NCBI GenBank assembly: GCA_009840175.1
Contig: VXOI01000009.1
Span: forward strand, 1 to 34,293
DNA: 34,293 nucleotides
Direction: 5' to 3'
DNA from: Chloroflexota bacterium
Lineage (GTDB): Bacteria > Chloroflexota > Dehalococcoidia > Lucifugimonadales > UBA3495
Under the pieces are notes generated by a model. It made no database searches and was not told the DNA's origin. It saw nothing but the letters and a program-made list of their open reading frames with translations. Shown here piece after piece: positions 2,562-22,993 of the stretch. The stretch's first letter is position 1, and each line of letters begins with the position of its first letter. A program made the translations under genes and the position numbers.

Positions 2562-3083
2562 TCACAAACCACGACCTGACAGTGCTCTCACACACAATGA
2601 TGCAAACGAAGCTCGCCGAATCCGACGGCACGCGTCATTCAACATCTTCAAGTACTCTGATGTCCAGGCGTCCGAAAAATCCCTATCGCTGAGAGCTTCC
2701 AGCAATATATTGGAACTCGGTTTTCTGTCGACTAGGCGCTCGGCCGGGACCACTATCCAGCGCGGTGTGGGGAAACCGATAGCCAAAGCGAAGTAGCCGA
2801 CTGCCCCGGACGAATCCAATAACGAGTCGAAATCTTCATTGGTCAATTGCCGCGGCCGTGGGCCGCTAACCTCAGCTTCAATCTCGAAGCGAAGCTCTTC
2901 TGCGCCTCTGAATGCGACGATGTCTGGATGCCCAAACTGGTTAATCTCTTTTATTCGGCAATTGAGCCGCATTAGTATGTGGGCAGCCATCGCTTGCACC
3001 TTGTATCCGAATTCAGAGGAGGAAACACTCAAGCGTAAATCCTCAATGCACTCGGACGCTCGCAATACTGCCTGGTCATTCAT
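2562..3083 (-). CDS. Small nuclease-like protein (divergent PD-(D/E)xK-like), partner of the SMC-like ATPase
   Basis: 173 aa; HPDIVAFRGAEELRFEIEAEV resembles a PD...ExE restriction-endonuclease-like core; overlaps the 3' end of the upstream ATPase gene by 8 nt. Confidence 0.5.
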   Translation of the reverse strand: MNDQAVLRASECIEDLRLSVSSSEFGYKVQAMAAHILMRLNCRIKEINQFGHPDIVAFRGAEELRFEIEAEVSGPRPRQLTNEDFDSLLDSSGAVGYFALAIGFPTPRWIVVPAERLVDRKPSSNILLEALSDRDFSDAWTSEYLKMLNDACRRIRRASFASLCVRALSGRGL

Positions 3084-5160
3084 ACATTATCTTCAGGGTT
3101 GGCCCTCTGTGTGGAGACCAACCGGTGGGCTCGATGATAACGTAGCTGTCCTCATCGAATACCTTCGGGATCATTTCTTGAAAGCGCTCAGTTTCTTGGG
3201 ACGCAACAATAAGCTGAACGTTGCGTCCGAGTTCGCGCAAGCGCTCCAAAAGAATATTGATGTGTTCCGTGTCCAAGGCTCGCGTGGGGTCGTCCAGCAT
3301 AACGAGGTAGACCTCGGTGGGGGTATCATCTGTCTGGCTGAACGCAAAGTGAGGGACCACAACCAAGGCGCTCTCTGCCTGGCCATTCAGTACGCCCGTC
3401 GGGTCTTCTCTACCAGTGGGATCTTGACTGCTTGCAACCCGAAGCTGCAGCTTCGGCAAGACAGAATTCGTGATTATCAGTCGGTCATACCAAGGGTGCT
3501 GCGTCAAGGCACTGAAGGCCCGGGAAAGGACTTCTGAGACACGAGGAATTTCCTGTCCTAATTGTTCGTTGAGCTGGGAATTCACTACCTCTTCAATTGT
3601 ACGGGCAGATTGCCCAAATGCCACCAGAGAATCGTAGGACTCTATGACTCTGTCGAGTTCCCTTCTATTTATCTGCAGGCTATTGAGTCGTCTTTGTATC
3701 CGGTGAAATCGGCTTTCTTCTTTAAGCCTGTTCAGTTCAGCTCGCTTGGATGCGGACCATGCGTCTTGGTCCTCCATCTGAGCATCGATAATGGATTCCT
3801 TCTGAACGTAGTTCTCGATCAATTGATCAATGTCTTCTGCCTCTGCCAGCCTGGCTTTGTCCTCGCTGTCAACAAGAGCCGCGGCATTCACCTCGTTGTC
3901 ACGTAACGATTTCAATCGGGATTCTTCTGTTCCGAGACGAAGTTCTAACTCTTCAGATTCTTGAAGTCGAGATTCAAGCTCGGCAACTATCGAACCTGCG
4001 GAGTCATCAGATTGGGTTGCGGTGCCCTGGAGGGTCGACTCCAAGACCTGCCGGTCGTGGTGAGAGTCACAGATCGGGCAGGGTACTTCCTCAGAGTCGC
4101 CCCGTCCAATTAAGTCAATCGCGTCGCGAACGATTCTTCCCTTTATGGATTCTGTTGTGGCTTCGAATTTCGCATCCGTTAGTTTTTGCTGCAACTCGTC
4201 GGCCGTTTGGTCATCGTACACATCCGCCAATTTGCCCTTGGTGCCTTGGATGATGGACTCCTGTGTCTGGATTTGAGCCGATACGCTGCGCAATTCTTCC
4301 AGTAGTCCTCGCGATTTGGCTAACTCCTCCGATCTTTTCTCTAAACTGCCTCGGTCTTGGGTGCGTCTCTCGCTGAGTGAGCTTTCGGCGCTCTCTAACA
4401 AGGCTTCAAGGGATGACCCTTGCAAGTCATCACCGGGAGGTTTTCCGGTGATTTCTTCAATGAAACGGCGGGCCTTCTGTTCTGACGCTGCGATTGATGG
4501 TGCTGGCCCGGTGCCCCAAGGTGGTGCGTTAAGGATACTGCTTCGACGGGTCTGCTCCTCTGCTATTTGACCGTCGATGTTCTTACGGACATCCGTGAGT
4601 TCCTCGTCTAATTCGTGCTCCAGGTCAGTCTGGTCTTCCAAGAAATCATTAAGGTTGCTTAGCAGCGCTCGTGGATGCGTAAGACCGAGGTAGTTGAAGA
4701 CGGTCCTTTCAAATGGGTCAAGATCCTCCGGCTGTCTGCGGAGTGGAGCCGATTGAGGGGCGAAGATAATATGCGTACCCTCACCAGCATCCACGGAGTC
4801 GAGTTGAGGCATTACCTCCCTCAAGGGGCGCCTGTTTCCATGGCGGTCGGTCAGGATGGGCTCGCTACTACTGCCGGTGCCGAGGTTTAGAGTACGACGA
4901 AGAGTCCATAGTTCTCCGTCACGAATCAACCTGACCGTAACGCGACAATCGCCAGAATAGTGCTGGTTCTTTACGACCTCGTTAGGTCGGTACGCCGAAC
5001 CGAATAGACCCCAGCGAACGGCCTCTACAATGCTAGATTTCCCGTTGCCATTGCGGCCAAGTAGGAACACGTGCCGACTCTTGAAGTCTATTGCCTGCGA
5101 AGATGCAAATCCCTTGAATCCTTCTATTTCCACGCTTTGAACACTGAAGCCCGTCGCCAC
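3076..5160 (-). CDS. Rad50/SMC-like AAA ATPase with coiled coil and a zinc-hook-like CxxC
   Basis: Walker A GRNGNGKSS; coiled-coil region; CPICDSHH hook; Walker B/D-loop region VYLVMLDDPTRALDTEH. Confidence 0.85.
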   Translation of the reverse strand: MATGFSVQSVEIEGFKGFASSQAIDFKSRHVFLLGRNGNGKSSIVEAVRWGLFGSAYRPNEVVKNQHYSGDCRVTVRLIRDGELWTLRRTLNLGTGSSSEPILTDRHGNRRPLREVMPQLDSVDAGEGTHIIFAPQSAPLRRQPEDLDPFERTVFNYLGLTHPRALLSNLNDFLEDQTDLEHELDEELTDVRKNIDGQIAEEQTRRSSILNAPPWGTGPAPSIAASEQKARRFIEEITGKPPGDDLQGSSLEALLESAESSLSERRTQDRGSLEKRSEELAKSRGLLEELRSVSAQIQTQESIIQGTKGKLADVYDDQTADELQQKLTDAKFEATTESIKGRIVRDAIDLIGRGDSEEVPCPICDSHHDRQVLESTLQGTATQSDDSAGSIVAELESRLQESEELELRLGTEESRLKSLRDNEVNAAALVDSEDKARLAEAEDIDQLIENYVQKESIIDAQMEDQDAWSASKRAELNRLKEESRFHRIQRRLNSLQINRRELDRVIESYDSLVAFGQSARTIEEVVNSQLNEQLGQEIPRVSEVLSRAFSALTQHPWYDRLIITNSVLPKLQLRVASSQDPTGREDPTGVLNGQAESALVVVPHFAFSQTDDTPTEVYLVMLDDPTRALDTEHINILLERLRELGRNVQLIVASQETERFQEMIPKVFDEDSYVIIEPTGWSPHRGPTLKIMYE

Positions 5161-5820: not shown

Positions 5821-7566
5821 CTACTGGGGTCGAGGCCAACGGCAAATAGCCCGTTCAGCAAGGCTAGCTGTTCTGCCGGCAATCTGCTGCGGACCCCACG
5901 TCTCATTTTGCTCAAGGACTTCCCTGGCAGTTCTGTAGATCGTCTCATTCCGTAGGCGGCTTCGAGCCTCGTCCCAGTCAGCAGATCCCTTTGTCGAGTT
6001 ATCAGATTGGCTCAGCGGTACGAGGTTTCCAAGCAGACCGAGAATTTGGTCTCGCTCCTCCTTGTCTTCGGGAAATTCATTAGCCCAGGTGCCTTTGAGC
6101 GATTGCGGAGCTAGGTGATCAACCGTAACCGCCTTGAGCTGCTCTGGCGAAAATGGGTTCGTTTTGTGAGCGTCGATCTCAAGCTCACACAGCACATAGC
6201 CGTCAAGGCGGCGTCCATAGAACGGCTTGCTTGGGATATCTCTTCGAAGCTGTTCGTCGTCTGGGAAGTCGATGGTTCTAGTCTGAAGGTCGGACACAAG
6301 ATTTCCTGGATTGCCGCCGTTCTTCCCCCATAAACTCTTGAACACCGCGTGGAGTCCGGTTGGCTCTCGACCTGAGAAGGCCCTCCTGACCAAAAAGGAC
6401 TCGACAATTCTCAGGCATTCGGCAGCGTCAGAGACACTCAGCTCACCTAACCGTTGAGCCCTGAGCAACTGGATCAGAAATGCGTAGGTCACACGGGGAG
6501 CAGGCATACGAGCGAGTCGTTCCACCCATGTCGCTATCTCTGGTGTTGATGAGTAGCTCACTCCAGCTGACAGGGCGTTGTACTCGGGCACGAATTGCCC
6601 GAGATCCTTGATGATGAGTTCCGCGGTTTTGGCGGAATCATCGATCCCTCGAAACTCTTTGTCCCAGTGATCGTTGAGTGCGCCGAACGCCTTAGCGACC
6701 GTCGCTCTGTCGTTGACCGTAAGGGTGAACGGGTAGTAATAATTGTCGAGCTGCTGTCGATTCGCGAACGACTTTTCGAAGGGATCCCAGTGCTCGTTGT
6801 ACAACCGCATCGCAGTGGTTGCATCAGCCGCGAGTCGCCTGAAGATCTCGTTCTTCACAAGATCACCGACAGTCAGAGGTTGACCCGGGCGGTTCAAACG
6901 ATTGAATACCTCGTTTGGGTGGTGTCGTTCAGCAATATTGATGGCTGCAATCTCGACTCTGTCGACGATTGTTAGTTCCAGGGCCTTCAGCGATTCGCGG
7001 TTAAAGCCGTCCTCGCCTAAGCACCTAGCGCGCACCTCTGACTGAGCTCGCTCAAGTGCCGCAGTCATCCTTCCTTGCCTGAAGCTAGCGCCAGATGGCA
7101 GGTTCCAGTTGACATCCAATTTTCGACACAGGGAGATGAACTCCGGCGTATCCGGTATGGTTGGGAAAAAGCGGGGCGTACCTCTCGTCGTTGTGCGAGT
7201 GGACATCAAGAATGCTTCTGCGACGTCTGTAGCATCGTTCGGGTGTCCATGCTCTTGCCATTCTAGCGCGACGGCGAGGAGCGCGAAGAACAGGGTTGTA
7301 ATCCGCTGCTGTCCGTCCAGCACGAGGAACTCCTCAAGGGTGCCTGTGCTAGGATTGCTAGCCACTTCGTGCTTCAAGATGATCGCGCCCAAGAAGAGAG
7401 CCTCGGATTCTCCCTCTTCGACTAGTCTTATATCCTCCCAAAACTCGTCAAGGTTTTTTGAGACCCACGAGAATCGCCGTTGATAGAGAGGTGCGGAAAG
7501 CCGTCGCTCAACCTCAAAGACACTACGTACGTTGACGCAACTGTCTTGCTGTCTCATTAACGTCAT
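5821..7566 (-). CDS. DUF262 plus DUF1524 (HNH) protein, GmrSD-like Type IV restriction family
   Basis: YQRRFSW..., LVLDGQQRITTLFFALL (DUF262 motif) and C-terminal VDHLAPQS...LGNLVPLSQSDN (DUF1524 HNH-like). Start chosen at MTLMRQQ; the ORF extends upstream to 7656. Confidence 0.85.
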   Translation of the reverse strand: MTLMRQQDSCVNVRSVFEVERRLSAPLYQRRFSWVSKNLDEFWEDIRLVEEGESEALFLGAIILKHEVASNPSTGTLEEFLVLDGQQRITTLFFALLAVALEWQEHGHPNDATDVAEAFLMSTRTTTRGTPRFFPTIPDTPEFISLCRKLDVNWNLPSGASFRQGRMTAALERAQSEVRARCLGEDGFNRESLKALELTIVDRVEIAAINIAERHHPNEVFNRLNRPGQPLTVGDLVKNEIFRRLAADATTAMRLYNEHWDPFEKSFANRQQLDNYYYPFTLTVNDRATVAKAFGALNDHWDKEFRGIDDSAKTAELIIKDLGQFVPEYNALSAGVSYSSTPEIATWVERLARMPAPRVTYAFLIQLLRAQRLGELSVSDAAECLRIVESFLVRRAFSGREPTGLHAVFKSLWGKNGGNPGNLVSDLQTRTIDFPDDEQLRRDIPSKPFYGRRLDGYVLCELEIDAHKTNPFSPEQLKAVTVDHLAPQSLKGTWANEFPEDKEERDQILGLLGNLVPLSQSDNSTKGSADWDEARSRLRNETIYRTAREVLEQNETWGPQQIAGRTASLAERAICRWPRPQ

Positions 7567-7826
7567 GTGTAAATTCCTCCTTTGGCAATAAGCCTTACGC
7601 CCACGCTCAATGACCTCCGGGTTGCCCCGAATACACGACCGACGCGAGAGAGACATTCTGGCGGTGATGGCAGTCTGGCTGCCCGGTCACTCGGTGGCTA
7701 CCGTTACCGGAGTTGGTGAGCAACTAATTCATTATGCCACTGCTATGCGAAACAGGTTGTCGCATGACCAATGTTTTTCAACCCAGCCAGCCATGGTCCG
7801 TGCCAAACACCACAAAGAATCGGAAA

Positions 7827-8330
7827 TTAGAAGCTGCCCCAACCCAGCAATATGACCCAAAAGACAACCGAGAGGAGGCTCAGGTAGTACGCCCACCGGA
7901 CACGGCGCATTTTGGTGCTGGCTATCCAGGAAACCGTGTGAATCTGGTCCAACAGTTGACGCTCAATTGTCTCAGTCCCCATTGAAGTTGCTTGCTCTCT
8001 TAAAGACTCCAACGACATCGCCGCGATGTCCTCAAAGTAGATGAGGGATCCCCCGGTTCTCGGATTTCTGGGCAGGTAAACGCTGGTGGCAAACGCAACA
8101 ACACCGATGACAGATAGGGCGTAGAGCGCGAGCACTCCCGCCAGCACGGCCGACTCCACGCCCCAAGGCTCTTTTCCGATTATGGGAGCAAGTCTCTCGA
8201 ACCGGGCCGCCACTGTGCCTGCCAGTGCAACCTGGAGGGCCAGCACTGGTGCCGCCTTGCTGTCCGCCGCTCTCGTAAACCCAATCGCCCGGGACAGCGA
8301 TTCGTAATGGGACCTGAGACGCTCCTCCAC
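7827..8330 (-). CDS. pycTM: Pycsar effector-like transmembrane protein (PycTM-like)
   Basis: 167 aa with about 3 hydrophobic helices (ALQVALAGTVAARF, ESAVLAGVLALYALSVIGVVAFA, YYLSLLSVVFWVILLGW); starts 3 nt after the cyclase stop. Confidence 0.7.
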   Translation of the reverse strand: MEERLRSHYESLSRAIGFTRAADSKAAPVLALQVALAGTVAARFERLAPIIGKEPWGVESAVLAGVLALYALSVIGVVAFATSVYLPRNPRTGGSLIYFEDIAAMSLESLREQATSMGTETIERQLLDQIHTVSWIASTKMRRVRWAYYLSLLSVVFWVILLGWGSF

Positions 8331-8333
8331 GTT

Positions 8334-9170
8334 TCACCTAGCGGGACGTTGACCCGTAATAATCGCCTCGCAGAATTCTGCGCCGTGTCGCTCGCACCAA
8401 CCGGCCCTGCGCGTATAGACACTTCCGAAGTCCAGCCCCAATCCCTTTGGCGCAGCTTGTTTCGCCCACAATCTTGATGCTTGGCCGGTGGAAGCGCTCA
8501 ATCCCGGTCCTCGATTTCTACCGCCGCAGCCGCAGGACCAGATCAGGGCCTGTTGCCTTAACTTGGCAGCCCTTTCGTATCCGGCAAATACCCTGTCGGA
8601 CGCCGCCACCTGGTTGGGTCCGGCTGCGGAGCTCAGCTTGGCGGCCATGTTTACGGTCTTTCCGGCCCAAACTTCATTCCGTTTGGTTCCCTTCAATCCA
8701 AGTTGTCTCACGAGCAGGGTACCCTGGTCGATACCAACCCCGACCTCAAGTTTCCACTGAACCGAGGCGTCTTTCTTGAATCTCACGGCAACGACTTTTT
8801 CCACTTGGCTTCTCATGGTGATGGCGCAAGCGGCCGCATGGAACATAGACCTCTGGCCGCCGAACAGCCCGAATATCCCATCTCCTTGGATATCGACATA
8901 TCCCGCCGAGAATCTTTCCAGAACTACGGTCATTGCCCTGATGAAGTAGGTGTACGCGAGAGCCGCTGCTTCCGGCGAAACGGACGAACTGAGCGCGGTC
9001 GAACCTTTGAGGTCGGCGAACACGGCGGTGACGTTTGGAATCCGCCACCACAATCCCCTGCTGGCTGGTCCAGTCTCCGGAACTTCGGCCTGATCGATCA
9101 CCTGCACGCCGAGCTTGGCTTGGTCATTCAATTGGGCAACAACGGCTGTCGAAATTTCGTCAAGTATCAA
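8334..9170 (-). CDS. pycC: Class III-type nucleotide cyclase, candidate pyrimidine cyclase (PycC-like)
   Basis: FADLKGSTALSS and DIQGDGIFGLF metal-binding motifs, NEVWAGKTVNMAAKLSS; paired with a TM effector as in Pycsar. Confidence 0.75.
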   Translation of the reverse strand: MILDEISTAVVAQLNDQAKLGVQVIDQAEVPETGPASRGLWWRIPNVTAVFADLKGSTALSSSVSPEAAALAYTYFIRAMTVVLERFSAGYVDIQGDGIFGLFGGQRSMFHAAACAITMRSQVEKVVAVRFKKDASVQWKLEVGVGIDQGTLLVRQLGLKGTKRNEVWAGKTVNMAAKLSSAAGPNQVAASDRVFAGYERAAKLRQQALIWSCGCGGRNRGPGLSASTGQASRLWAKQAAPKGLGLDFGSVYTRRAGWCERHGAEFCEAIITGQRPAR

Positions 9171-9276: not shown

Positions 9277-11196
9277 TTACCTGCCAAGACCCGTGGTACA
9301 TTGAGCGCGGACTGGACAGTTCTTACACTTGGGCGCACGGGCTGTGCAGACCATGGCCCCCAAATCCAGAAGAGCCTGATTCCACTTTGCATCCGCGCCC
9401 TCGGCTCCGGCCAGTTCATAAAGCGAAAGCCTGAGATCCCACTTAGGTTGCTTGGGACCCTTGCCTGACACCCTGCGGGCTATCCTCATCGTGTTGGTGT
9501 CCATGATCACGCTGGAACGACCAAAAGCAAAACAGAGAACCGCGGAGGCTATATAATCGCCCACGCCTGGGATGGCAACCATTCCCTGCCAGTTGTCAGG
9601 CACCTGACCGGCCGCCCTGTCCCTGATGAATTCGGCAGCAGCGCCAAGATTCGCGGACCGCCAGTGGAGTCCGAGGGAGGCCAACGAAGGTTCGAGGGCC
9701 TCCAGGTTGTCTAGGAAAGAATCAGGCGTCCCACCCAATCTGAGCAGTTCGTCAGCCACCTTTGCCACCTGCTCGGCCCTTGTCCGGTGAAGGCACATTT
9801 CAAGCAACAAGGTCTGCCAGGGATTCAGGTCAGAGCGCCTCCAGGGAAAGTCACGCCTGTTCCACTTGAACCATTGAATTAGGCTGTCCCGAAAGGAAAT
9901 CCTGTATTCGGCCCTGTTCTCTCTGACCACCGAGTGGACTGGACTGTCGCCAAGGACTTGTTTCACCGACGAAGCTATAGCCGAAGCGAGCATCGGGGGA
10001 ACTGCGTTGCCAATTTGCCGATACCTGCTGGACGGGTGTCCGGCAAACCTGAATACATCGGGAAAGGTTTGAATTCTGGCCGCCTCCCGTATAGAGAGGG
10101 TGCGGTCCTCTCTCGGATGGATGTACCAGTAACCATCCTTGGCTATATGAGCGGTAATGGTCCTGGACAGGCCTTCGAAGGACAACCTTACATACTTATC
10201 ATTGAAAATATCGGATCGGTATCTCCTGGAATCTTCGGGTACGTCCAGGTAGGTATCTCCGGGGTTCAGTTGAGAGTAAATCAGCGCGTCATCCGGTCGC
10301 ACCGCCCTAGTCACATGATCCCGAATCCGCCGGGATTCCTCGCCTCGCAATCCCTTTCTGAGCGACTTCGCCAGTGCTGAGGAAGGTGGACCCTCATACG
10401 CCTGGGTTTCGCCCCTGGTATCCGCAGGAACCACTGGAAGGTCACCGATGGCCTGCCCCACCGTCGGTTGCCTCCCCCGAGGTTTGGGCCACTCAAATTT
10501 CCCATTTCCTGCAATCCCGACTACAAAGAGACGTGAGCGATGCTGAGGAACACGATACTGCCACGCCTGCAGCATCTTCACGTGCACTTCATAGTCACGG
10601 CCCTTCAGCTCATCCATCAGGGCAACCAACAACGCCCCTCCCTGAGCTTGGGCGAAATCGGGAACGTTCTCAAATAGCATGGCCTTCGGATTCAACCTGT
10701 CAATAACGGAAAAGAAGCTCCGCCACAGGTCGGCCCTGTCATCGAGAACCCTGCGGTTGCCCGTCCTAACCAGGTTCCCAATCTTGGAGACGCCGGCCCT
10801 GGAGAACGGCTGGCAGGGAGGACCACCCGCCAAGAGGTCAACGTCTTCAATGCCCCATTCATCCAATTGGTGAATGAAGGCAGAGGGATCGGCAAGATCC
10901 CCCGTCCAGGTGAGACTCTGAATATTAGCGGCATGGGTTTCGGTCGAAACAGGGTCGAAGTCTGCCGCGGCGATGACGGAGAAGCCCGCCTCCTCCAATC
11001 CCAGGCTCAACCCGCCGGCGCCGCAGAAGAGGTCTATCGCCCAAGGGCGTGGGCGTTCTTCCAACCACGTGCGTACGGCATCCCCGTCGTTCGGGTCCGG
11101 CGACATCTGGTGAGGGACTAGTTTTATCCGTTCCCCCCGGTGGGTGGGCAGTCTGTAGGACGAAGGTTTTTGGGCAGTTTCGGAAGGATTATCCAT
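9277..11196 (-). CDS. Fusion: C5-cytosine DNA methyltransferase plus HhH-GPD/MutY-Mig-type mismatch DNA glycosylase
   Basis: MTase motifs AIDLFCGAGGLSLGLEEAGF, GGPPCQPFSRAG, FENV, QHRSRLF, RQIGNAVPP; then FPWRRSDLNPWQTLLLEMCLHRTRAEQV, IPGVGDYIASAVLCFAFG, VIMDTNTMRI and [4Fe-4S] CTARAPKCKNCPVRAQC in one ORF. Confidence 0.93.
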   Translation of the reverse strand: MDNPSETAQKPSSYRLPTHRGERIKLVPHQMSPDPNDGDAVRTWLEERPRPWAIDLFCGAGGLSLGLEEAGFSVIAAADFDPVSTETHAANIQSLTWTGDLADPSAFIHQLDEWGIEDVDLLAGGPPCQPFSRAGVSKIGNLVRTGNRRVLDDRADLWRSFFSVIDRLNPKAMLFENVPDFAQAQGGALLVALMDELKGRDYEVHVKMLQAWQYRVPQHRSRLFVVGIAGNGKFEWPKPRGRQPTVGQAIGDLPVVPADTRGETQAYEGPPSSALAKSLRKGLRGEESRRIRDHVTRAVRPDDALIYSQLNPGDTYLDVPEDSRRYRSDIFNDKYVRLSFEGLSRTITAHIAKDGYWYIHPREDRTLSIREAARIQTFPDVFRFAGHPSSRYRQIGNAVPPMLASAIASSVKQVLGDSPVHSVVRENRAEYRISFRDSLIQWFKWNRRDFPWRRSDLNPWQTLLLEMCLHRTRAEQVAKVADELLRLGGTPDSFLDNLEALEPSLASLGLHWRSANLGAAAEFIRDRAAGQVPDNWQGMVAIPGVGDYIASAVLCFAFGRSSVIMDTNTMRIARRVSGKGPKQPKWDLRLSLYELAGAEGADAKWNQALLDLGAMVCTARAPKCKNCPVRAQCTTGLGR

Positions 11197-11641: not shown

Positions 11642-11938
11642 ATGAAAGCGGAGATCAATGTCCCGGACCACTTGGCCGAAGCCTTGGACTTCATGGCGGA
11701 GTGCGACGGTCAGACGCCCGATGAATACATCCAAGAGCGGGTGATACTCTACCTGCAGGATTGGCTCTACCACATCAAGGACCCTGACCACGGAATAACA
11801 CGTTCCATCTGCGGGCATTACGGCGGTCCCAATTTGGTCACGGCCCTCGGTGCTGAGGAGCAGACTCCCGGGCTGCTCACGCCAATCCAGATGTGTTCGG
11901 TATGCCTTGCGGCTCAAGCCAAAAACCACGATCCCTGA
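11642..11938 (+). CDS. Small hypothetical protein (98 aa)
   Basis: ORF MKAEINVPDHLAEALDFMAECDGQTPDEYIQERVILYLQDWLYHI..., good codon appearance, upstream purine-rich stretch. Confidence 0.55.
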   Translation: MKAEINVPDHLAEALDFMAECDGQTPDEYIQERVILYLQDWLYHIKDPDHGITRSICGHYGGPNLVTALGAEEQTPGLLTPIQMCSVCLAAQAKNHDP

Positions 11939-12104: not shown

Positions 12105-14303
12105 ATGGGCATTGAGATGACAGATACAGCGAATTCCACATCGGGGACCAGCACGCTTCGCCCGAGGGCCCGCATTCTTCGCACTCTTGGCGACGAACTG
12201 ATCAGCAGCGAAGCCGTCGCGCTGATGGAGCTCGTCAAGAACTCCTACGATGCCGACGCCACCAGGGTACTGGTGAGATTTCACGGGCCTCTCGAAATCG
12301 GGAAAGGGAAGGTCGAGGTCATTGACAACGGTCATGGAATGTCGCTGGAAACCATCCAGACAACCTGGATGGAGCCGGCCACCCTCTCCAGGAAACGGGA
12401 GCGGAGAAGCCAACGATTGGGTCGTCGCGTTCTGGGAGAAAAAGGGATTGGGCGATTCGCCACCTCACGCTTGGCCAACTTCCTTGAAGTGGTGACCCGT
12501 CGGGCGGAGTCAGAGCAGGAAACCCGAGTCTATTTCGACTGGGCGCAATTTGACAACGAGGGGAAATACCTGGACGAGGTTGAGGTTCTGTGGGAGGAGG
12601 AAGACCCCACGGAACTCGCACCGGGTGGTATCGTCGAACGACTGTGGGACTCCGGTGGAGAGCCGAATCTGGACGATCTGACCCACGGCACAATCCTCCG
12701 AATGGAGCAGTTGCGGAGCAACTGGAGCGGGTCTGAATTTGAGGATCTGCGGACCAGATTGTCGCGCCTGGTATCGCCCTTCTTTGGAGACGAGCTGTCA
12801 GCAAGGAATGACCAATTCGAGCTGTGTCTTGACCTTCCTCCGCCGTTCGAACAGCAGTCCGGTATCGTCGAACCTCCCGAACTGCTCCGTAGTCCTCATT
12901 ACGTATTGAAGGGCACGATAAATGCGGACGGTCGCTATGACTTTGACATCGGTCTGCGGGATGGAGGCAGCGAGGAGTCAATTCAGGGCGAATTCAACCC
13001 CAAAAGCCATGAACCGGAATGTGGTCCCATAGGAGTCGAACTGCGGGTTTGGGACCGGGACCCAACTTCCATGGCCGAACTGGTGGAGCGTCATTCGTTC
13101 CAATCGGTTTCCCAGGTCAGGGGGATGTTGGACAATGGCGCCGGCATCAGTATCTATCGGGACGGGTTCAGAGTGCTGCCCTACGGCGAACCGGACGATG
13201 ACTGGTTGCGGCTGGATATGCGTCGTGTGCAGAACCCCACACTTCGACTGTCAAACAACCAGGTCTTGGGCTACGTGTTAATCTCATCCGAGGGAAACCC
13301 GAATCTCAGGGACCAGAGCAATCGGGAGGGTCTCATCGAGGGCCCCCCTCTGGACGGCCTCAGAGAGTTGGTCAAGATGACCCTCCATGAACTTGAGGTT
13401 CGGAGGTACAAGCTCCGTCATCCAACTCCCCAACCCCGGCGGCGGCAAGCCGGGGGCCTCTTTGCCGACCTCGACCTGGCGACTGTCCGCGATTATGTGC
13501 AACGCCAACACCCGGATGACCATCATCTAAGGCAATTGGTTGGGAATGCGGAAAGGGAACTGGAAACCCGCGCCCAGGGAATTCAGGAAGTTCTTTCCCG
13601 CTACCACCGTCTGGCTGCTCTCGGACAGCTGATAGATGTTGTTCTGCATGACGGCAGAGCGCCTCTGGCAAAAATAAACAATGAGGCTGTCCTGGGACTG
13701 CGGGACGTAGACCGTTCGGGACAGGGCAGTATGGCCGCTATCGTGAAACTTGGGGACAGATTCAGAGGTATCGTGACCCAGTCCGACGCACTGGCAACCA
13801 TCTTCAGAAAAATCGAGCCATTTGGCGGAAGGAAGCGGGGGAGACCGGGATTGGTCTCGTTAGAGGAAGTGATAGCGAATGCCTTTTCCGTTCTCGACAC
13901 CGAGATTGCGGAAGTCGGAGTGGAGATAAGCCTGCCGGATACCAAGACCCAGGTCACGGTGGACCAAGCAGAGATTCAGCAGGTTGTCATCAATCTCCTA
14001 CAAAACAGTCTGCACTGGCTGCGTCATGTGCCCCAGGACACCCGACAAATCTCCGTTCACGTGCGGCGAAGAGAGCCGGATGAGGTGGAGGTCGTATTCT
14101 CAGATAGCGGGCCCGGTGTGAGTCCCGATTTCAGGGATCGAATTTTCGACCCGTATTTCTCCACCAAACCGGACGGAGTGGGACTTGGATTGACAATCGC
14201 CGGGGAGATAGTGAATGACTACTACGCAGGGGACCTCGAATTGCTGGAAAATGGTCCCCTTGCCGGAGCGACGTTCCGAATTGTCCTGCGTCGCCGGGTG
14301 TGA
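12105..14303 (+). CDS. Double-GHKL protein: N-terminal HSP90-like ATPase plus C-terminal histidine-kinase HATPase
   Basis: N-terminal ALMELVKNSYDADATRV, VIDNGHGM, GEKGIGRFATSRL; C-terminal H-box-like VVLHDGRAPLAKI, VINLLQNSLHWL, FSDSGPGV, GVGLGLTIAGEIV. Confidence 0.85.
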   Translation: MGIEMTDTANSTSGTSTLRPRARILRTLGDELISSEAVALMELVKNSYDADATRVLVRFHGPLEIGKGKVEVIDNGHGMSLETIQTTWMEPATLSRKRERRSQRLGRRVLGEKGIGRFATSRLANFLEVVTRRAESEQETRVYFDWAQFDNEGKYLDEVEVLWEEEDPTELAPGGIVERLWDSGGEPNLDDLTHGTILRMEQLRSNWSGSEFEDLRTRLSRLVSPFFGDELSARNDQFELCLDLPPPFEQQSGIVEPPELLRSPHYVLKGTINADGRYDFDIGLRDGGSEESIQGEFNPKSHEPECGPIGVELRVWDRDPTSMAELVERHSFQSVSQVRGMLDNGAGISIYRDGFRVLPYGEPDDDWLRLDMRRVQNPTLRLSNNQVLGYVLISSEGNPNLRDQSNREGLIEGPPLDGLRELVKMTLHELEVRRYKLRHPTPQPRRRQAGGLFADLDLATVRDYVQRQHPDDHHLRQLVGNAERELETRAQGIQEVLSRYHRLAALGQLIDVVLHDGRAPLAKINNEAVLGLRDVDRSGQGSMAAIVKLGDRFRGIVTQSDALATIFRKIEPFGGRKRGRPGLVSLEEVIANAFSVLDTEIAEVGVEISLPDTKTQVTVDQAEIQQVVINLLQNSLHWLRHVPQDTRQISVHVRRREPDEVEVVFSDSGPGVSPDFRDRIFDPYFSTKPDGVGLGLTIAGEIVNDYYAGDLELLENGPLAGATFRIVLRRRV

Positions 14304-15511
14304 TTATGGCGGGAACTGAGTGGCAGGCGTTGTTCGTTGATGATGACCCCGACCTGTGCCGTCAGGTCGAGGAATATCTTGACGGGGAACTTGTCGGCGG
14401 TTCGGATCATGTCCTCCGGGTGCAGGCCATCAGTGATTTCAACAGTGCCCTGAGTGAACTGGAAACCCGACGCATTGACCTTCTGATACTGGACGTCAGG
14501 GTAGGTCCCCATGATCAGGAACACCAAGATGATGGGAACACAGAAGACGCAGAGAGCCTGGTGGAAGAAGAGGGTATCAGAATTATAGCTGCCGTTCGTG
14601 CGAGGCGATTTGTGCCCGTGGTGTTCTATACGGGCCTTGATTACAAGGTTCGAGCAATGGAATCGCCGGTAGTGCGGATAGTGGAAAAGACGGAAGGTCT
14701 GCCGAAACTGCTGCTAACCATCAGGGAAATCTTCGATACCGCGTTGCCACAGACCAATCGTGCATTGGTCCATCATTTGGAAGCGGTGCAACGTGATTAT
14801 ATGTGGGGCTTCGTTGCGGAGAATTGGAACAGTTTTGCCGGGGGCGCAGACCGCAGGGAATTGGCCTACCTGTTGGCGAAGCGTTTGGCAATCTCATTAT
14901 CCGGGCCGGGCATTCAACAGTTGGCGCAGGACATGGGTGATACCACGGGTGCATTCACATCGGATGAAAGGGTTCATCCGATGCTGTACTACCTGCTGCC
15001 ACCGGTGGAGCCAGCACCCCTTGCGGGTGACCTGTATTATGGTGCCATCGGTGAGCAGGCCGGATATTGTATTCTGATTACCCCATCCTGCGATATGGTG
15101 GCTGGAAGAGAGAAGGCGGACTTCATGCTCTTTGCTCGCTGCCTTCATCTTGCGGAGCAACCGGAATTTGCAGCCTGGAAGGCAGGACTCCCAGAACCGT
15201 CCAACAATGTGAAGCGAAGGTTGGAGTTCCTGCTTGGAAACAACCGACAGGGTGGCCAACCCGAGAGGTTCTACTTCCTTCCAGGAGCTCTCACCCTGCC
15301 CAATTTGGTGGTGGATTTCCAGCAGTTAGTGACCCTGCCACGAGGCACAGCGAATGGTCTGGAGCGGAGAGCGTCCCTCGATAGCCCCTTCGCCGAAGCA
15401 TTCCTAGCACGCTTCGCCCGGTATTTCGGTAGATTGGGAACACCGGACCTAGATGTGGATTCCGTGATGTTCAGATTAAACCAGCAATTCGGCGGTCAAA
15501 GTTTGTCTTGA
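14300..15511 (+). CDS. Response regulator receiver with an uncharacterised C-terminal domain
   Basis: VDDDPDL, LLILDVRVGP (phospho-acceptor Asp), VVFYTG, VEKTEG; start overlaps the upstream stop (GTGA); C-terminal region contains ITPSCDMV. Confidence 0.85.
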   Translation: MIMAGTEWQALFVDDDPDLCRQVEEYLDGELVGGSDHVLRVQAISDFNSALSELETRRIDLLILDVRVGPHDQEHQDDGNTEDAESLVEEEGIRIIAAVRARRFVPVVFYTGLDYKVRAMESPVVRIVEKTEGLPKLLLTIREIFDTALPQTNRALVHHLEAVQRDYMWGFVAENWNSFAGGADRRELAYLLAKRLAISLSGPGIQQLAQDMGDTTGAFTSDERVHPMLYYLLPPVEPAPLAGDLYYGAIGEQAGYCILITPSCDMVAGREKADFMLFARCLHLAEQPEFAAWKAGLPEPSNNVKRRLEFLLGNNRQGGQPERFYFLPGALTLPNLVVDFQQLVTLPRGTANGLERRASLDSPFAEAFLARFARYFGRLGTPDLDVDSVMFRLNQQFGGQSLS

Positions 15512-16488: not shown

Positions 16489-17388
16489 CTATTGGCCTTG
16501 AATCGCGCGGATAGTCTCGGTTAACTCAACTGTCAATTCCTCAAGTCCCTGCGCGTTCGGCAAATATCTGACGTATCTGATGTGCCGAAGATCGAATGGT
16601 ACATCCTCGTCGTTTTGCACGATCATAATTACATCGCGGTTTCGCGCATGGGCGAGTCCCGTTTCATACAATACGTTGGGATTTCGCCCCGTAAGGTCAC
16701 TGACCACCAGCTTGCTCTGTTCTATGGTTCTGAAGACGTCGTCGATGATGTGCGTAGGACCGTATATCTCGTCAACTCGCAGCGGCTTGAGGCGTAGCCC
16801 TTGGCACGTCTCCCTCACCGCCTCGTAAACAGGATTAAAAGCTGTATCGAAAGGCATCATTACCGCGACGTGTCCGAGGTGTGCCAAGGGCCACGGCTCC
16901 ACACTGAACGCTTTTGGGCATTTTTCAATAGGTTGCTGATTGAGCAGTTGCAGGACGCTTTCCATGAGATTGCCATTCTTTACAGCCCAATGAGTACGTC
17001 GTGTTTCGTCGATCCCGCTACTGCTGAGGAAAATATCGAAGAGGCCGCTGTTGAAGACTTCCTCTGAGGTGAACCTGCCGAACAGATGGTCGAAGCGAAA
17101 ACGTATATTCGTTCCCTGATTTTCGATTTGGTCGATGCGGCTTACGAAGGCCGGCTGACCGAGATTATCAGGGTGGCGCTCGGCTACCACCAGAGTGGGA
17201 AGATCGCTCAGATCTTTCAAGTTGTCACTGAATTTGGATTTCAAGCCACCATCGGTGCCTTCAAGCATTCTACCCGCAGGGAAGTAACCCCATCCGGACA
17301 GGCTGCGAAAGACCGGGTGGTCGGTGGCTGCATATACGATCAAATTATAATGAGTCTGAGACCATTCCATGGCAATTTCCTTATGCAC
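16489..17388 (-). CDS. Protein with C-terminal TIR-like/nucleoside 2-deoxyribosyltransferase-like domain
   Basis: AVMMPFDTAFNPVYEAVRETCQGLRLKPLRVDEIYGPTHIIDDVFRTIEQSKLVVSDLTGRNPNVLYETGLAHARNRDVIMIVQNDEDVPFDLRHIRYVRY. Confidence 0.75.
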   Translation of the reverse strand: MHKEIAMEWSQTHYNLIVYAATDHPVFRSLSGWGYFPAGRMLEGTDGGLKSKFSDNLKDLSDLPTLVVAERHPDNLGQPAFVSRIDQIENQGTNIRFRFDHLFGRFTSEEVFNSGLFDIFLSSSGIDETRRTHWAVKNGNLMESVLQLLNQQPIEKCPKAFSVEPWPLAHLGHVAVMMPFDTAFNPVYEAVRETCQGLRLKPLRVDEIYGPTHIIDDVFRTIEQSKLVVSDLTGRNPNVLYETGLAHARNRDVIMIVQNDEDVPFDLRHIRYVRYLPNAQGLEELTVELTETIRAIQGQ

Positions 17389-17532: not shown

Positions 17533-20500
17533 TCAGGCCAGCGCCCAACCGTCCGACAGCACCTCCGCTTGTTCCAGCACGGTTAGAATAGCCTTTTCTT
17601 GCTTGTCGGGAGGATAGCCATGTTTGCGCAGGATACGCCGGACCAAGACACGGAGCTGCGCTCGGACGTTCTCTCGCAGCGTCCAGTCGATGGTGACGTT
17701 GCTACGGACGGTTTCCACCAGCTCGCGGGCGATGGCGCGGAGTGTCTCGTCACGCAGCATCTGAACGGCGCTGTCGTTGGTTCCCAGGGCATCGTAGAAA
17801 GCTAGCTCATCATGCGTCAGGCCAAGCTTTTCACCCCTAGCGCTGGCTTCCCGCATCTCGCGGGCCAGTTGGATCAGTTCTTCAATCACCTGCGCAGCTT
17901 CAATTGCGCGGTTTTGATAGCGGCGGAGGGTCTGTTCCAACATCCCGGCGAAGGAGCGGGCTTGAACCACGTTGGTGCGCCGACGACTTGCCACTTCGCC
18001 CCGGAGCAGCTTTTGCAGCAACTCCACCGCCAAGTTGCGCTCAGGCATCCCCTGAACCTCGGCCAGAAATTCGTCGGACAGCACCGAGATGTCGGGTTTG
18101 TCCAAGCCGGCGGCGGCGAAGACGTCAATCATGCCTTCGGACGCCACCGCACGGGAAACTATCTGCCGTACCGCCAAGTCCAAGTCTTCCTCCGGGCGCG
18201 CCTCCCCCGCCGCTCGCTTGGACAATGCCGCTCGCACTGCCTGGAAGAACCCCACATCGTCGCGGATGCGGAAGGTTTCTACGTGCGGCACAGCCAGGGC
18301 AAAGGCTTGTGAGAGTTCACGGACTGCAGCCATACAACGATCCTTGCCGCTTTCCTGGGCCAGGATGTGCTCTTGTGCGGGAGGAAGCAAACCCAAACGC
18401 TCCGCTGGTGCGCCAGTAGTCCATTTGGACCAGTCGAAGCCGTGAAACAGCGCACAGCATACGTCGTACTTTTCCAGCATCGCGGCTACTGCCTCTTCCT
18501 TGTCGATGGCGGTGCGCCCCGTTCCTCCGCTCTCGGTGTAAGTGACCAATGCTTGCCGCAGATCGTTAGCCAGCCCAAGGTAGTCCACCACCAGCCCGCC
18601 CGGCTTGTCCTTGAACACCCGGTTCACCCGAGCGATGGCCTGCATCAGCCCATGGCCACGCATCGGTTTGTCCAGGTACATGGTGTGCAGGCTGGGCGCG
18701 TCGAAGCCGGTCAGCCACATATCCCGCACCAGCACGATGCGGAAGGGGTCGTCAGGGTCCCGGAAGCGGTTGCCCAGCGCCTCCCGCCGGGCCTTGTTTC
18801 TCACGTGCTTCTGCCACTCCGGCGGGTCCGATGCCGAACCGGTCATCACCACCTTGATGTTGCCCTTGGCGTCATCATCATCGTGCCACTCCGGGCGTAG
18901 ACGAGCCAGCTCGTTGTAGAGGTCAACGCAGATGCGCCGGCTCATGCACACCACCATCGCCTTCCCTTCCAGTACTTCCAGACGCTGCTCGAAGTGGTCC
19001 ACAATGTCCTGGGCAATCTGCTTGACCCGGTTTTCGGCGCCGACGACGGCCTCCAACTGCGCCCACTTGGTCTTCAGCCGCTCCTTGCGCTCGATTTCCT
19101 CGCCCTCGGTTGCCTCCTCAAAGTCAGGGTCAATAGTGGGCCGCTCGCTTTCATCCAGTTCCAACCGGGCCAGGCGGCTTTCGTAGTGGATGGGCACCGT
19201 GGCCCCATCCTCAACCGAACGCTGGATATCGTAGATGCTGATGTAGTCGCCGAACACCGCCCGGGTGTTGGCGTCATGCAACTCGATGGGCGTGCCGGTG
19301 AAGCCAACGAAAGAAGCGCTGGGCAGGGCGTCCCTCATGTGCCGGGCGTAGCCGTCGATGAAGTCGTACTGGCTGCGGTGGGCCTCGTCGGCGATGACGA
19401 CGATGTTACGCCGCTCCGATAGAGTGGGATAGGTGTCGCCTCGCTCCTCGGGGAAGAACTTCTGGATGGTGGTGAACACCACACCCCCCGCGTTTACAGA
19501 CAGTTTTTCCCGCAGGTCGGCCCGGCTTTCCGCCTGCACCGGAGGCTGGCGCAACAGGTCCTGGCAGCGGGAAAATGTGGTGAAGAGCTGGTCGTCCAAG
19601 TCATTGCGGTCGGTGAGAACCACGATGGTGGGATTCTCCATAGCCTGCTCGCGGACGATGGCGCCGGCGTAGAAGGCCATGGTCAAGCTTTTTCCCGAAC
19701 CTTGGGTGTGCCAGACTACCCCGATTCGGCGGTCGCCCGGTTCTCCTCCTGACCTTCGTCCTGTTTCATACCTGCCCCGAATGGGTCGCGATGCAATCCT
19801 CTGCCCTTCCCGCTGTAGATCCGCTGCCCGCAGGGTCTCACTCACGGCGGCGCGAACGGCGTGAAACTGGTGGTAGCCGGCCATCTTCTTGACCAGCCGC
19901 CCGCTGCCGTCGTCATCAAAAACTACGAAATCTCGCAGCAGCGCCAGACATCGCTCTGGGTGGCAGGCACCCTCCAGCATCACTTGCAACTCAGTCAGGT
20001 CAGGACCGGCCAGGGTCTCGCCCGTAGTAGTGCGCCAGGGCTTGAACCACTCACGCCCGGCCCCCAAGGCGCCGATCCGGGCTTCAAGGCCGTCGGAAAC
20101 CATCAGCATTTCGTTCATGGAGAACAAGGAGGGCAGTTCCGACTGGTAAGTCTGAATCTGTTGCCAGGCGCTCCAGATGGTAGCGTCCTCGTCGGAGGGG
20201 TTCTTCAATTCTATAATGCCTAAGGGCAGGCCATTCACAAACAGGACGACGTCGGGGCGGCGGGTGTTCCGGTTCCCGCCCACCGTGTCGGTTAAGCTAA
20301 ATTGGTTGACCACCAGCCAATCATTGGCCGCCCAATCGTCGAAGTCGATGACCTTGGCCGGCTCGCCCCGCATGTTGCCGTCGGCAGAGCGATACTCCAC
20401 GTTGACGCCGTTGACCAGCATCCGGTGAAAGGAGCGATTGCGGGCCTCCAACGTCGCCCCCTCAGGGTGGGTTAGCTTGCGGAAGATGTCCTCCAGAGCA

Positions 20501-20700
20501 TCAGCGGGCAGGCCGCGGTTAATCTGGGCGAGGGTATTTCGCAACCGATGCTCTATGATCACCTGACTGTAATCGTTACGTTCGAAGTTAGGCGTCTCAG
20601 GAGCGATGTCAGGGCCGTACATCACGCGCCAACTAAGACCCTCCAGCCAAGCGAGTGCTGCCTGTTCGACAACATACTCTGAGAGTAGAGCTCTGTTCAT
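17533..20700 (-). CDS. hsdR: Type I restriction-modification endonuclease/translocase subunit R
   Basis: 1055 aa; [21 protein letters not shown] nuclease motif, [11 protein letters not shown] Walker A, DEAH ([11 protein letters not shown]), [16 protein letters not shown]-like [18 protein letters not shown]. Confidence 0.97.
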
Positions 20701-21353
20701 GGCTCCACCTCTTCCATGGCTTCTTCCCCAAAGGTACCTATCAATTTCCCACCGAGATCTCGATAGGCTGGGTGGTCGACAGCAAACAACAACTCGCTAG
20801 CATAGTAATCCTGCTCACCTACGGTGATGATACCGTACTGCGCGTCAATAGCCATATCGAAATCCCTTTCTTGAGCCGGAGGCTGCTGTGGAGTTCGATC
20901 AAGTATCGCTTGTTCGAGCGCAGCTTCGGGGTCGCCAACCTCAAAGAGGACCGAGAATATCCAAAGTGCAGCGTTTCGAGCGATCTGAAGGGTGATTATG
21001 TCGGGTATTCCCTTCTGACCACCGTGATACTGCTCGTTCCGTTGACGGTGCGCCCAAATGATGTGCGATTTTTCTATTGACCAAGTAAGGCTTCTTTTCT
21101 CCAGTTCCTTCTCGAAGAACCCAAGCTTGGTGAGATAGTCTTGCATCCATTGGTTGACATCATCCCTTTTGTACTGGCGCCCTCCTCGTTGGACCGGATG
21201 CAGCGTAAGGTAGGTCGTGATTGCCACCTCAATGGCATTATCGAAGCTGATGAGTGCAATGCTGCGACCGAAATCGTCTGCTTCGCGCAGGTGACTTTCC
21301 GCATGAACCATCAACTCGAACGGACCAATGGCCCATGGGGGGAGAGAGGTCAT
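20697..21353 (-). CDS. HEPN-like domain protein (candidate RNase toxin) inside the Type I R-M operon
   Basis: 218 aa; RNEQYH matches the HEPN RX4-6H motif; helical N-terminus ...[17 protein letters not shown]; overlaps hsdS and hsdR by 4 nt each. Confidence 0.6.
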
Positions 21354-22993
21354 GGTGCTTCCTCAGTTAGCAAACATTTCGGTTGCCTTACCTCTAACCC
21401 TCCCGACACCAGTCTCGGCAGCAGCACATCCCGCTGAGCGGCCAAAGAGCGAGAGCCGAATTCGTTGGTCCTGAGCTTCTGTTCCAACGGTAGCACCCAT
21501 TTAGCGAACCTGCCGACTAGTTCGTCCGTTGGGGATATTACCGACAGGGTCTCGAACTGCTTTCTGGTAATCGCGCCGAAAACCGTACCTGTTTGCTCGT
21601 ACCGCTCAAACTCGGACTGCATAGCCCAGGCTGAATAGTAGGTGAATGCACCGGACTCCGATTTGTGTCGCAATGCGGCTACTCCTCTGCCGATGCAGCA
21701 TTTCTCCCAAGCCATGTTCAGGGCACCAACGGGTGCTCTAACACTGACCAATGTATCGCCTCCTTCGGCAATTCGATTAGGTGACGAGCAATATTTTCGG
21801 TTGCTGGGAAATCGCGCCCCAAAGTCGGTGCTACCTTGAAAGAACGGCAGTCCTTCGCCATGGTCATTGTAAGTGTTTCCCGGTGGTGATTGCCCCATCG
21901 TGAGATTAAAGCAATCCCCTAGCGACTTCACCTCCCACCCTTCCGGTATCTCGCCCAACTCCGAGTCCACGAGCCGGTCAGGAAACAGGTCCCACAGCTC
22001 CGGCGGGAGGTACGGTTCCCGTCCTTCCAGCTTGGCGCGGACCGGGCCGAAGTCCACGAACCAGTCCTCAAAGATGGCACGGGCCATGGCTTCCAGCGTT
22101 TCGTTCATCCGCCGGTTGAGCTCAATCTTGTCGTCCAGCGTACCGAGGATGTGAGCGATTGAGCGTTGTTCAGGTAAGGGCGGGAGCATGAACATAAACT
22201 GCTTGATCCGATCCGGGGACGTATGTTTCACCGTCGTTCCGGTCGCACTCGCGAGGATCTCGTGGCGATAGTCTGCGGTGCACATGACGTAGTAGAGGAA
22301 TCTCGTATCAACGGCATCGGTTCCCTTGAGGGAAACCTTTCCAAGACGTTGGTTGTGCAAATAGCGAAGTCCCTCTGGGCCTTCGGGTACGAGTGCCGGG
22401 TAACCAAGAGTGTCCGAAAGTTTGCTGAGGTCGGTCATCGTGACCAGCAAATCACCTGTGCTGAGGACAAACTCTTCGGGAACATACCCATCGTAAAATT
22501 TGAACTTCTCACCCTTAAACCCTCCGCCTACGGCAAAGTTACCAGGCGTAAGCAGCACATCTCCTCGGGGTTCGTCGTGGATGTTTTCACCCTTGAAAGC
22601 GAACCCGTGCTTTATATCAACCAGGTCTCCGATAGACACCTGGGCCCACCCACCGTAACCCTTTGACGTCGATTTGAGCCGCATGTCCTGCACGACCACG
22701 TAACTGCGTTCAATCGCCCGTTGAAAACTCTCCGGCAACCTTGCCCAGTCGTGGACCTGAATCGAGATAGGGATGTTGGACTGCTCTAATGCCTCGACGA
22801 GTTCGACGTATTCGTTGCCCAAGGGTTCCAGGGTAGGGCCGCGCAACACCAGATCCAGGTCGCTGCCGTCGTGGCTCCGGCCGCTAACGCGGCTGGCGCA
22901 GGCCCACACTTCGGCGTCGGGCACGTACTCGTGCACTAGCGCATCGAGTTGTTCCCGGTAGCGGAGGAGGAAGTCCAAGCGGTCAGTCATCAT
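21350..22993 (-). CDS. hsdS: Type I R-M specificity subunit with N-terminal minimal nucleotidyltransferase (MNT) domain
   Basis: N-terminal EVWACASRVSGRSHDGSDLDLVLRGP (S-X10-DxD); two TRDs with central repeat LPPLPEQRSIAHILGTLDDKIELNRRMNETLEAMARAIFEDWFVDF. Confidence 0.9.
   Translation of the reverse strand: MMTDRLDFLLRYREQLDALVHEYVPDAEVWACASRVSGRSHDGSDLDLVLRGPTLEPLGNEYVELVEALEQSNIPISIQVHDWARLPESFQRAIERSYVVVQDMRLKSTSKGYGGWAQVSIGDLVDIKHGFAFKGENIHDEPRGDVLLTPGNFAVGGGFKGEKFKFYDGYVPEEFVLSTGDLLVTMTDLSKLSDTLGYPALVPEGPEGLRYLHNQRLGKVSLKGTDAVDTRFLYYVMCTADYRHEILASATGTTVKHTSPDRIKQFMFMLPPLPEQRSIAHILGTLDDKIELNRRMNETLEAMARAIFEDWFVDFGPVRAKLEGREPYLPPELWDLFPDRLVDSELGEIPEGWEVKSLGDCFNLTMGQSPPGNTYNDHGEGLPFFQGSTDFGARFPSNRKYCSSPNRIAEGGDTLVSVRAPVGALNMAWEKCCIGRGVAALRHKSESGAFTYYSAWAMQSEFERYEQTGTVFGAITRKQFETLSVISPTDELVGRFAKWVLPLEQKLRTNEFGSRSLAAQRDVLLPRLVSGGLEVRQPKCLLTEEAP

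Follow-up and report, generated by a model that had tools for sequence, protein, structure and literature searches.

A Mig-type glycosylase fused to a C5-cytosine methyltransferase in Chloroflexota, with a proposed role in place of Vsr

The window analyzed here, a stretch of 34,293 nucleotides of the Chloroflexota contig VXOI01000009.1 (assembly GCA_009840175.1), carries on its minus strand a single uninterrupted open reading frame (9277..11196) that starts at ATG and encodes a 639-residue fusion of a C5-cytosine methyltransferase with a Mig-type HhH glycosylase. The methyltransferase domain (9961..11037, minus strand) matches PF00145 over residues 54-412 with E=2e-56, and the chain scores 192 bits against a Pfam cut-off of 22. 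Motifs I, IV, VI, VIII, IX and X are all present, including the motif I sequence DLFCGAGG, the PCQ cysteine (Cys128), ENV at residues 176-178, REAARIQ and QIGNAVPP. The HhH-GPD domain with its [4Fe-4S] loop (9280..9915, minus strand) was found with the NCBIfam mutY profile TIGR01084 (residues 435-634, E=3e-35), where it scores 122 bits, below the equivalog cut-off of 286.5, and in the PDB it matches MutY and Mig (1KEA, 2.5e-26). Its key residues are Glu466, Arg471, Ala474, Tyr548, Asp566 and Gln607. The iron-sulfur loop has the form Cys617-X6-Cys624-X2-Cys627-X5-Cys633, and six residues further on the chain ends, without a C-terminal 8-oxoG recognition domain. The AF2 model of the whole chain (pLDDT 85.4, pTM 0.84) has two well-folded parts and a disordered linker at residues 419-432; a Foldseek search with the whole chain against the PDB returned, among the matches listed, methyltransferases only. 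The first-pass annotation had proposed a complete C5-methyltransferase followed by a [4Fe-4S] HhH glycosylase on one reading frame, and the two profiles, the PDB matches and the catalytic residues bear this out, with both Asp566 and Tyr548 in place. The Pfam HhH-GPD model scores below its cut-off on the fused domain, and proteins of this kind may therefore be annotated simply as methylases.

A frameshift or assembly error joining two genes is excluded by the recurrence of the fusion. Seven intact, full-length fusions occur in separate genomes that span two classes of the same phylum and whose records name Caldilineaceae, Chloroflexi and Dehalococcoidia bacteria: that of the window and those designated L011/L022, L019, L020, L021, L024 and L252, at about 65-81% identity. 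A broken copy that lacks the first part of the methylase (L012/L023) was left out of this set, as were three loci with a degenerate glycosylase domain (L003-L005), which are not counted as active fusions. Open-frame lengths had suggested two more fusions, L255 and L257; these were rejected, their frames showing tandem genes split by a stop. In the glycosylase tree the fused domains fall into a single clade with full support, and in the methylase tree their methylases also make up one clade, so that the fusion most simply arose once. The nearest relatives of this lineage have methylase and glycosylase in separate, adjoining genes. In the three closest pairs of fusions, dN/dS is 0.13-0.19 for the glycosylase domain and 0.11-0.14 for the methylase. 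Both domains are under purifying selection, and the closeness of these values speaks for function of both. Within the window's own fusion clade the catalytic Asp, the Glu and the iron-sulfur cysteines are invariant.

Assignment of the fused domain among the glycosylases of this superfamily depends on a small number of residues and on its kinship. Tyr548 aligns with Tyr126 of Mig, at the hairpin position where EndoIII has its catalytic lysine, as had been claimed from the first reading, and EMCLHRTRAEQV of the fusion aligns with EILLRRTTAGHV of Mig. The fusions agree with Mig residue for residue at Mig positions 27, 30, 42, 47, 50, 126 and 144 (Phe, Arg, Glu, Arg, Ala, Tyr and Asp). The exception is L019, in which Leu27, Thr50 and His126 (the Tyr and Ala both being lost) suggest that the glycosylase may be weakened. 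The claimed likeness to Mig thus holds at seven active-site positions and in the aligned segment, with two qualifications. The tyrosine is also found in GstMutY and nearly all MutY rows of our residue table, and because it occurs at the same hairpin position in Bacillus-type MutY (PMC2714593), it does not by itself point to Mig. Secondly, position 187, which is Leu in Mig, is a MutY-like Gln in all intact fusions (Gln607 in the window); in their unfused relatives it is Leu, Met, Phe, Trp, Tyr or a similar residue. Position 50 is as a rule Ala in methylase-associated glycosylases and Val in MutY, so that of the two residues that set Mig (Ala, Leu) against MutY (Val, Gln), Ala474 is Mig-like and Gln607 is MutY-like. 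The changes A50V and L187Q together turn Mig towards A:G, the other adenine-pocket residues being common to both enzymes, and in MutY it is Gln182 that contacts the adenine (PMC2714593). In the glycosylase tree the fused domains group with glycosylases encoded beside C5-methylases and lie outside the supported clade formed by MutY proteins, which are not methylase-adjacent. The fused domain has the features of a Mig-type enzyme (an HhH-GPD fold with catalytic Asp, Tyr in place of Lys, and a [4Fe-4S] loop), lacks the hairpin lysine of EndoIII, and shows neither a score above the mutY cut-off, nor a place in the MutY clade, nor the C-terminal 8-oxoG domain. From the genomic context and the seven other residues, T:G rather than A:G activity is likely; the MutY-like Gln607 keeps this preference a prediction. 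The same glutamine could conceivably mark an altered substrate, such as another modified pyrimidine.

Divergent from the fusion, beyond a small ORF with no Pfam match (11642..11938, plus strand), lies a plus-strand gene (12105..14303) for a paraMORC-like GHKL ATPase, with a C-terminal histidine-kinase-type ATPase domain (HATPase_c_3 7e-21, HATPase_c 4e-24) and an N-terminus that matches the BbrUII/HgiDII restriction family. Its stop is overlapped by the start of a gene for a response-regulator-like protein (14300..15511, plus strand; Response_reg 2.5e-6, below the gathering cut-off). The GHKL ATPase is also encoded beside the fusions of L019 and L022 and beside the unfused methylase-glycosylase pairs of L253, L035 and L017, and the response-regulator-like protein is kept beside the fusions of L019 (76%) and L022 (37%). 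A short plus-strand frame at 1928-2272 of the window resembles the latter protein (111 bits) and is probably a partial second copy. Paired, two-component-like paraMORC genes are known to come with C5-methylases and often with Vsr (PMC8011034). The ATPase and response-regulator-like pair of the window is similar to these cassettes rather than a member of them, because the genes adjoining the fusion match neither PF19191 (HEF_HK) nor PF19192 (Response_reg_2) and gave only HATPase_c_3, HATPase_c and the weak Response_reg match. At L021 the setting is different: the fusion stands at the head of an operon, followed by MORC, Z1, PD-(D/E)XK and AIPR genes and without Vsr, which is of the type of the MORC restriction-modification operons, where Vsr is a frequent companion (PMC2292703). 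The fusion loci thus contain either a GHKL ATPase with a response-regulator-like protein (the window, L019, L022) or MORC-Z1-PD-(D/E)XK-AIPR (L021). Both of these published surveys report Vsr, and the main text of neither mentions a glycosylase (PMC2292703, PMC8011034).

The surroundings form a dense defence island that spans 3076-24745 of the window. On the minus strand it includes an SMC/RecN-like ATPase with a weak LmuB match (3076-5160), a GmrSD type IV enzyme (5821-7656), a TIR-effector-like protein (16489-17388), type I HsdR (17533-20700) and HsdS (21350-22993), and a protein with weak pAgo/SIR2-Ago matches (23003-24745). A Pycsar pair (PycC cyclase and PycTM effector, 7827-9170, minus strand) lies directly downstream of the fusion. 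In a Haloplanus plasmid locus (L006, 3565-4825) a Pycsar pair is again found beside a glycosylase, a C5-methylase and a GHKL ATPase, an adjacency that may reflect chance within defence islands or some link. Genes for DUF6339 proteins and conserved hypothetical partners also recur beside C5-methylases that have a glycosylase or its remnant, on one cyanobacterial and three haloarchaeal plasmids (L005 3218-3898; L006 10575-11285; L007 1171-1860; L010 9850-10560).

The relation of such glycosylases to Vsr was followed in a census of 295 genomes of the window's class, in which the coordinates of C5-methylase, Vsr and close glycosylase-relative matches were compared. A glycosylase lies within 5 kb of 25 of the 119 C5-methylase matches and Vsr near 65 of 119, and none of the 119 has both. 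The expected number of loci with both partners is 13.7 (Fisher p=5e-11). Like the comparisons that follow, this test is correlational, partly structured by ancestry, and dependent on match lists whose content varies with threshold, several of the contigs being short. With one row per genus and state, there are 20 glycosylase, 30 Vsr and 0 double rows (p=1.5e-6). Six genera hold both kinds of locus, at different places, and some fusion-bearing genomes carry Vsr elsewhere, beside other methylases. On viral contigs, Vsr accompanies 16 distinct methylases, an intact glycosylase accompanies 2, and none has both partners; the Z1-helicase operons of the class include 7 with a glycosylase, 2 with Vsr, 6 with neither within reach and 0 with both. 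The exclusion is not merely that of two old clades, since a tree of 101 methylases requires at least 12 partner switches and sister rows differ in their partner. In the window's own assembly, where one C5-methylase is found, Vsr (PF03852) gave no match. The suggestion that the glycosylase replaces a separate Vsr-like gene is supported by the locus-level exclusion, by the partner switches and by operon types that carry either partner, all of which are consistent with the glycosylase filling the Vsr slot at C5-methylase loci. The two would share a task, the repair of T:G mismatches from m5C deamination, and they share a placement, but Vsr has an unrelated fold and chemistry (a nickase as opposed to a glycosylase) and is encoded by a separate gene.

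Taken with the exclusion, the switches and the operon types, the first-pass proposal of a self-contained writer and repair enzyme is supported, its T:G (as opposed to A:G) part being qualified by Gln607. We put at roughly 0.8 the probability that the fusion is a writer tethered to a T:G repair glycosylase that serves the decay of its own m5C. On this view a MORC-type restriction-modification cassette has, as its modification subunit, a C5-methyltransferase that has acquired a Mig-like glycosylase in the same chain. By homology, the methyltransferase part would write m5C at its own site. Once deamination has turned this m5C into a T that faces G, the tethered glycosylase, presumed monofunctional because it lacks the lysine, would remove the T. 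The abasic site left behind would then be refilled with C by host base-excision repair. Mutual exclusion suggests that the fused glycosylase stands in for the Vsr nickase of other C5-methylase loci.

The alternatives leave more of these results unexplained. We regard it as improbable that the fused domain is a MutY-like A:G adenine glycosylase, covering a host that lacks MutY and only incidentally linked to the methylase. mutY is its best general profile, Gln607 is MutY-like and leaves room for A:G activity given that MutY Gln182 contacts adenine, and nothing in the window's assembly scores above the mutY cut-off, either because MutY is absent from the host or because the assembly is incomplete. 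Nevertheless, the domain falls below the equivalog cut-off and outside the MutY clade, has no C-terminal 8-oxoG domain, and differs from MutY in having Ala in place of Val45 and Arg in place of Gln at Mig position 47. Genome G053 encodes a fusion together with a separate MutY-like gene, and an A:G role would leave the exclusion with Vsr unexplained. Apart from the fusion, two other HhH matches in the window's assembly (G000; C180 and C227) score far below the mutY cut-off.

Still less probable is an offensive glycosylase that strips T, U or modified cytosine from incoming DNA, which would make the fusion a modification enzyme with a base-excising restriction domain. Base-excising restriction enzymes do exist, R.PabI being one, and the fusion is surrounded by a dense defence island and has relatives in MORC-type operons. 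But the related operons already have a predicted nuclease (DUF4420 PD-(D/E)XK), the fused domain is exchanged for Vsr, which is a repair nuclease, and it has no lysine for strand cleavage.

The degenerate fusions bear on a further possibility. C5-methylases with a C-terminal remnant of the glycosylase are encoded at L003 (4803-6851), L004 (4920-6938) and L005 (3874-5820). The Asp, the Glu and the hairpin are gone in L003 and L004, as is the Asp in L005, and all three keep the four iron-sulfur cysteines. The viral locus L004 carries PD-(D/E)XK and AIPR genes of the same families as those of L021, and beside its Asp-less fused domain it encodes Vsr, which is what a repair function of the intact domain predicts. 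No Vsr was found beside L003 or L005 within the stretch examined, and loss of the glycosylase is thus not always paired with Vsr. Least probable of all is a C-terminal domain that serves chiefly to bind DNA or to target the methylase and whose chemistry is dispensable, since, for all the retained cysteines of L003-L005, the window's clade keeps the Asp, Glu and iron-sulfur cysteines invariant under purifying selection and the clearest Asp-less case, L004, has Vsr next door. Each of the three alternatives conflicts with at least one result among the single chain, the conserved domains, the methylase-adjacent kinship and the exclusion with Vsr.

The preferred reading, a writer tethered to its own T:G repair enzyme, has precedents in parts. 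The gene of Mig.MthI adjoins that of a C5-methyltransferase. Horst and Fritz reportedly described Mig.MthI in 1996 as a T/G mismatch glycosylase, with Mig as the repair partner in a methylating archaeon (cited in PMC2714593). Mig.MthI (1KEA) shares with the fusion the HhH-GPD fold, the [4Fe-4S] loop, the Tyr/Asp/Glu active site, Ala50 and Arg47, but it has Leu187 where the fusion has Gln607, and its methylase partner is a separate gene rather than part of one chain. MutY offers the closest curated profile, the same fold and Gln at position 187, but differs in its clade, its C-terminal domain, and in Val at position 50 and Gln at 47, where the fusion has Ala and Arg. Mammalian MBD4, like the fusion, combines an m5C-directed domain with an HhH-superfamily T:G glycosylase in one chain; its methyl-CpG-binding domain is a reader rather than a writer, and it is not known to have an iron-sulfur cluster. 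Separate pairs of Mig and methylase have been known since 1996. In the literature searched, which took in few subscription papers, neither the covalent fusion nor the exclusion between glycosylase and Vsr is described, which speaks only weakly for novelty.

5-Methylcytosine is a mutation hotspot, and the cost of cytosine methylation in prokaryotes is known mostly from Vsr. With good though lesser confidence, Mig-type glycosylases can be viewed as a second widespread repair partner of prokaryotic C5-methylases, swapped with Vsr many times, with one lineage having fused writer and remover, perhaps for site-directed repair. One slot would then be served by two unrelated repair chemistries, never together at a locus in the sets tested, and by fusion in one lineage. 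It becomes directly testable whether every m5C writer requires a mismatch-repair partner of its own, and the fusion is a natural construct in which single active-site changes could uncouple writing from repair. The fusion also yields an annotation prediction for many genes beside C5-methylases that are now called "adenine glycosylase" or "hypothetical".
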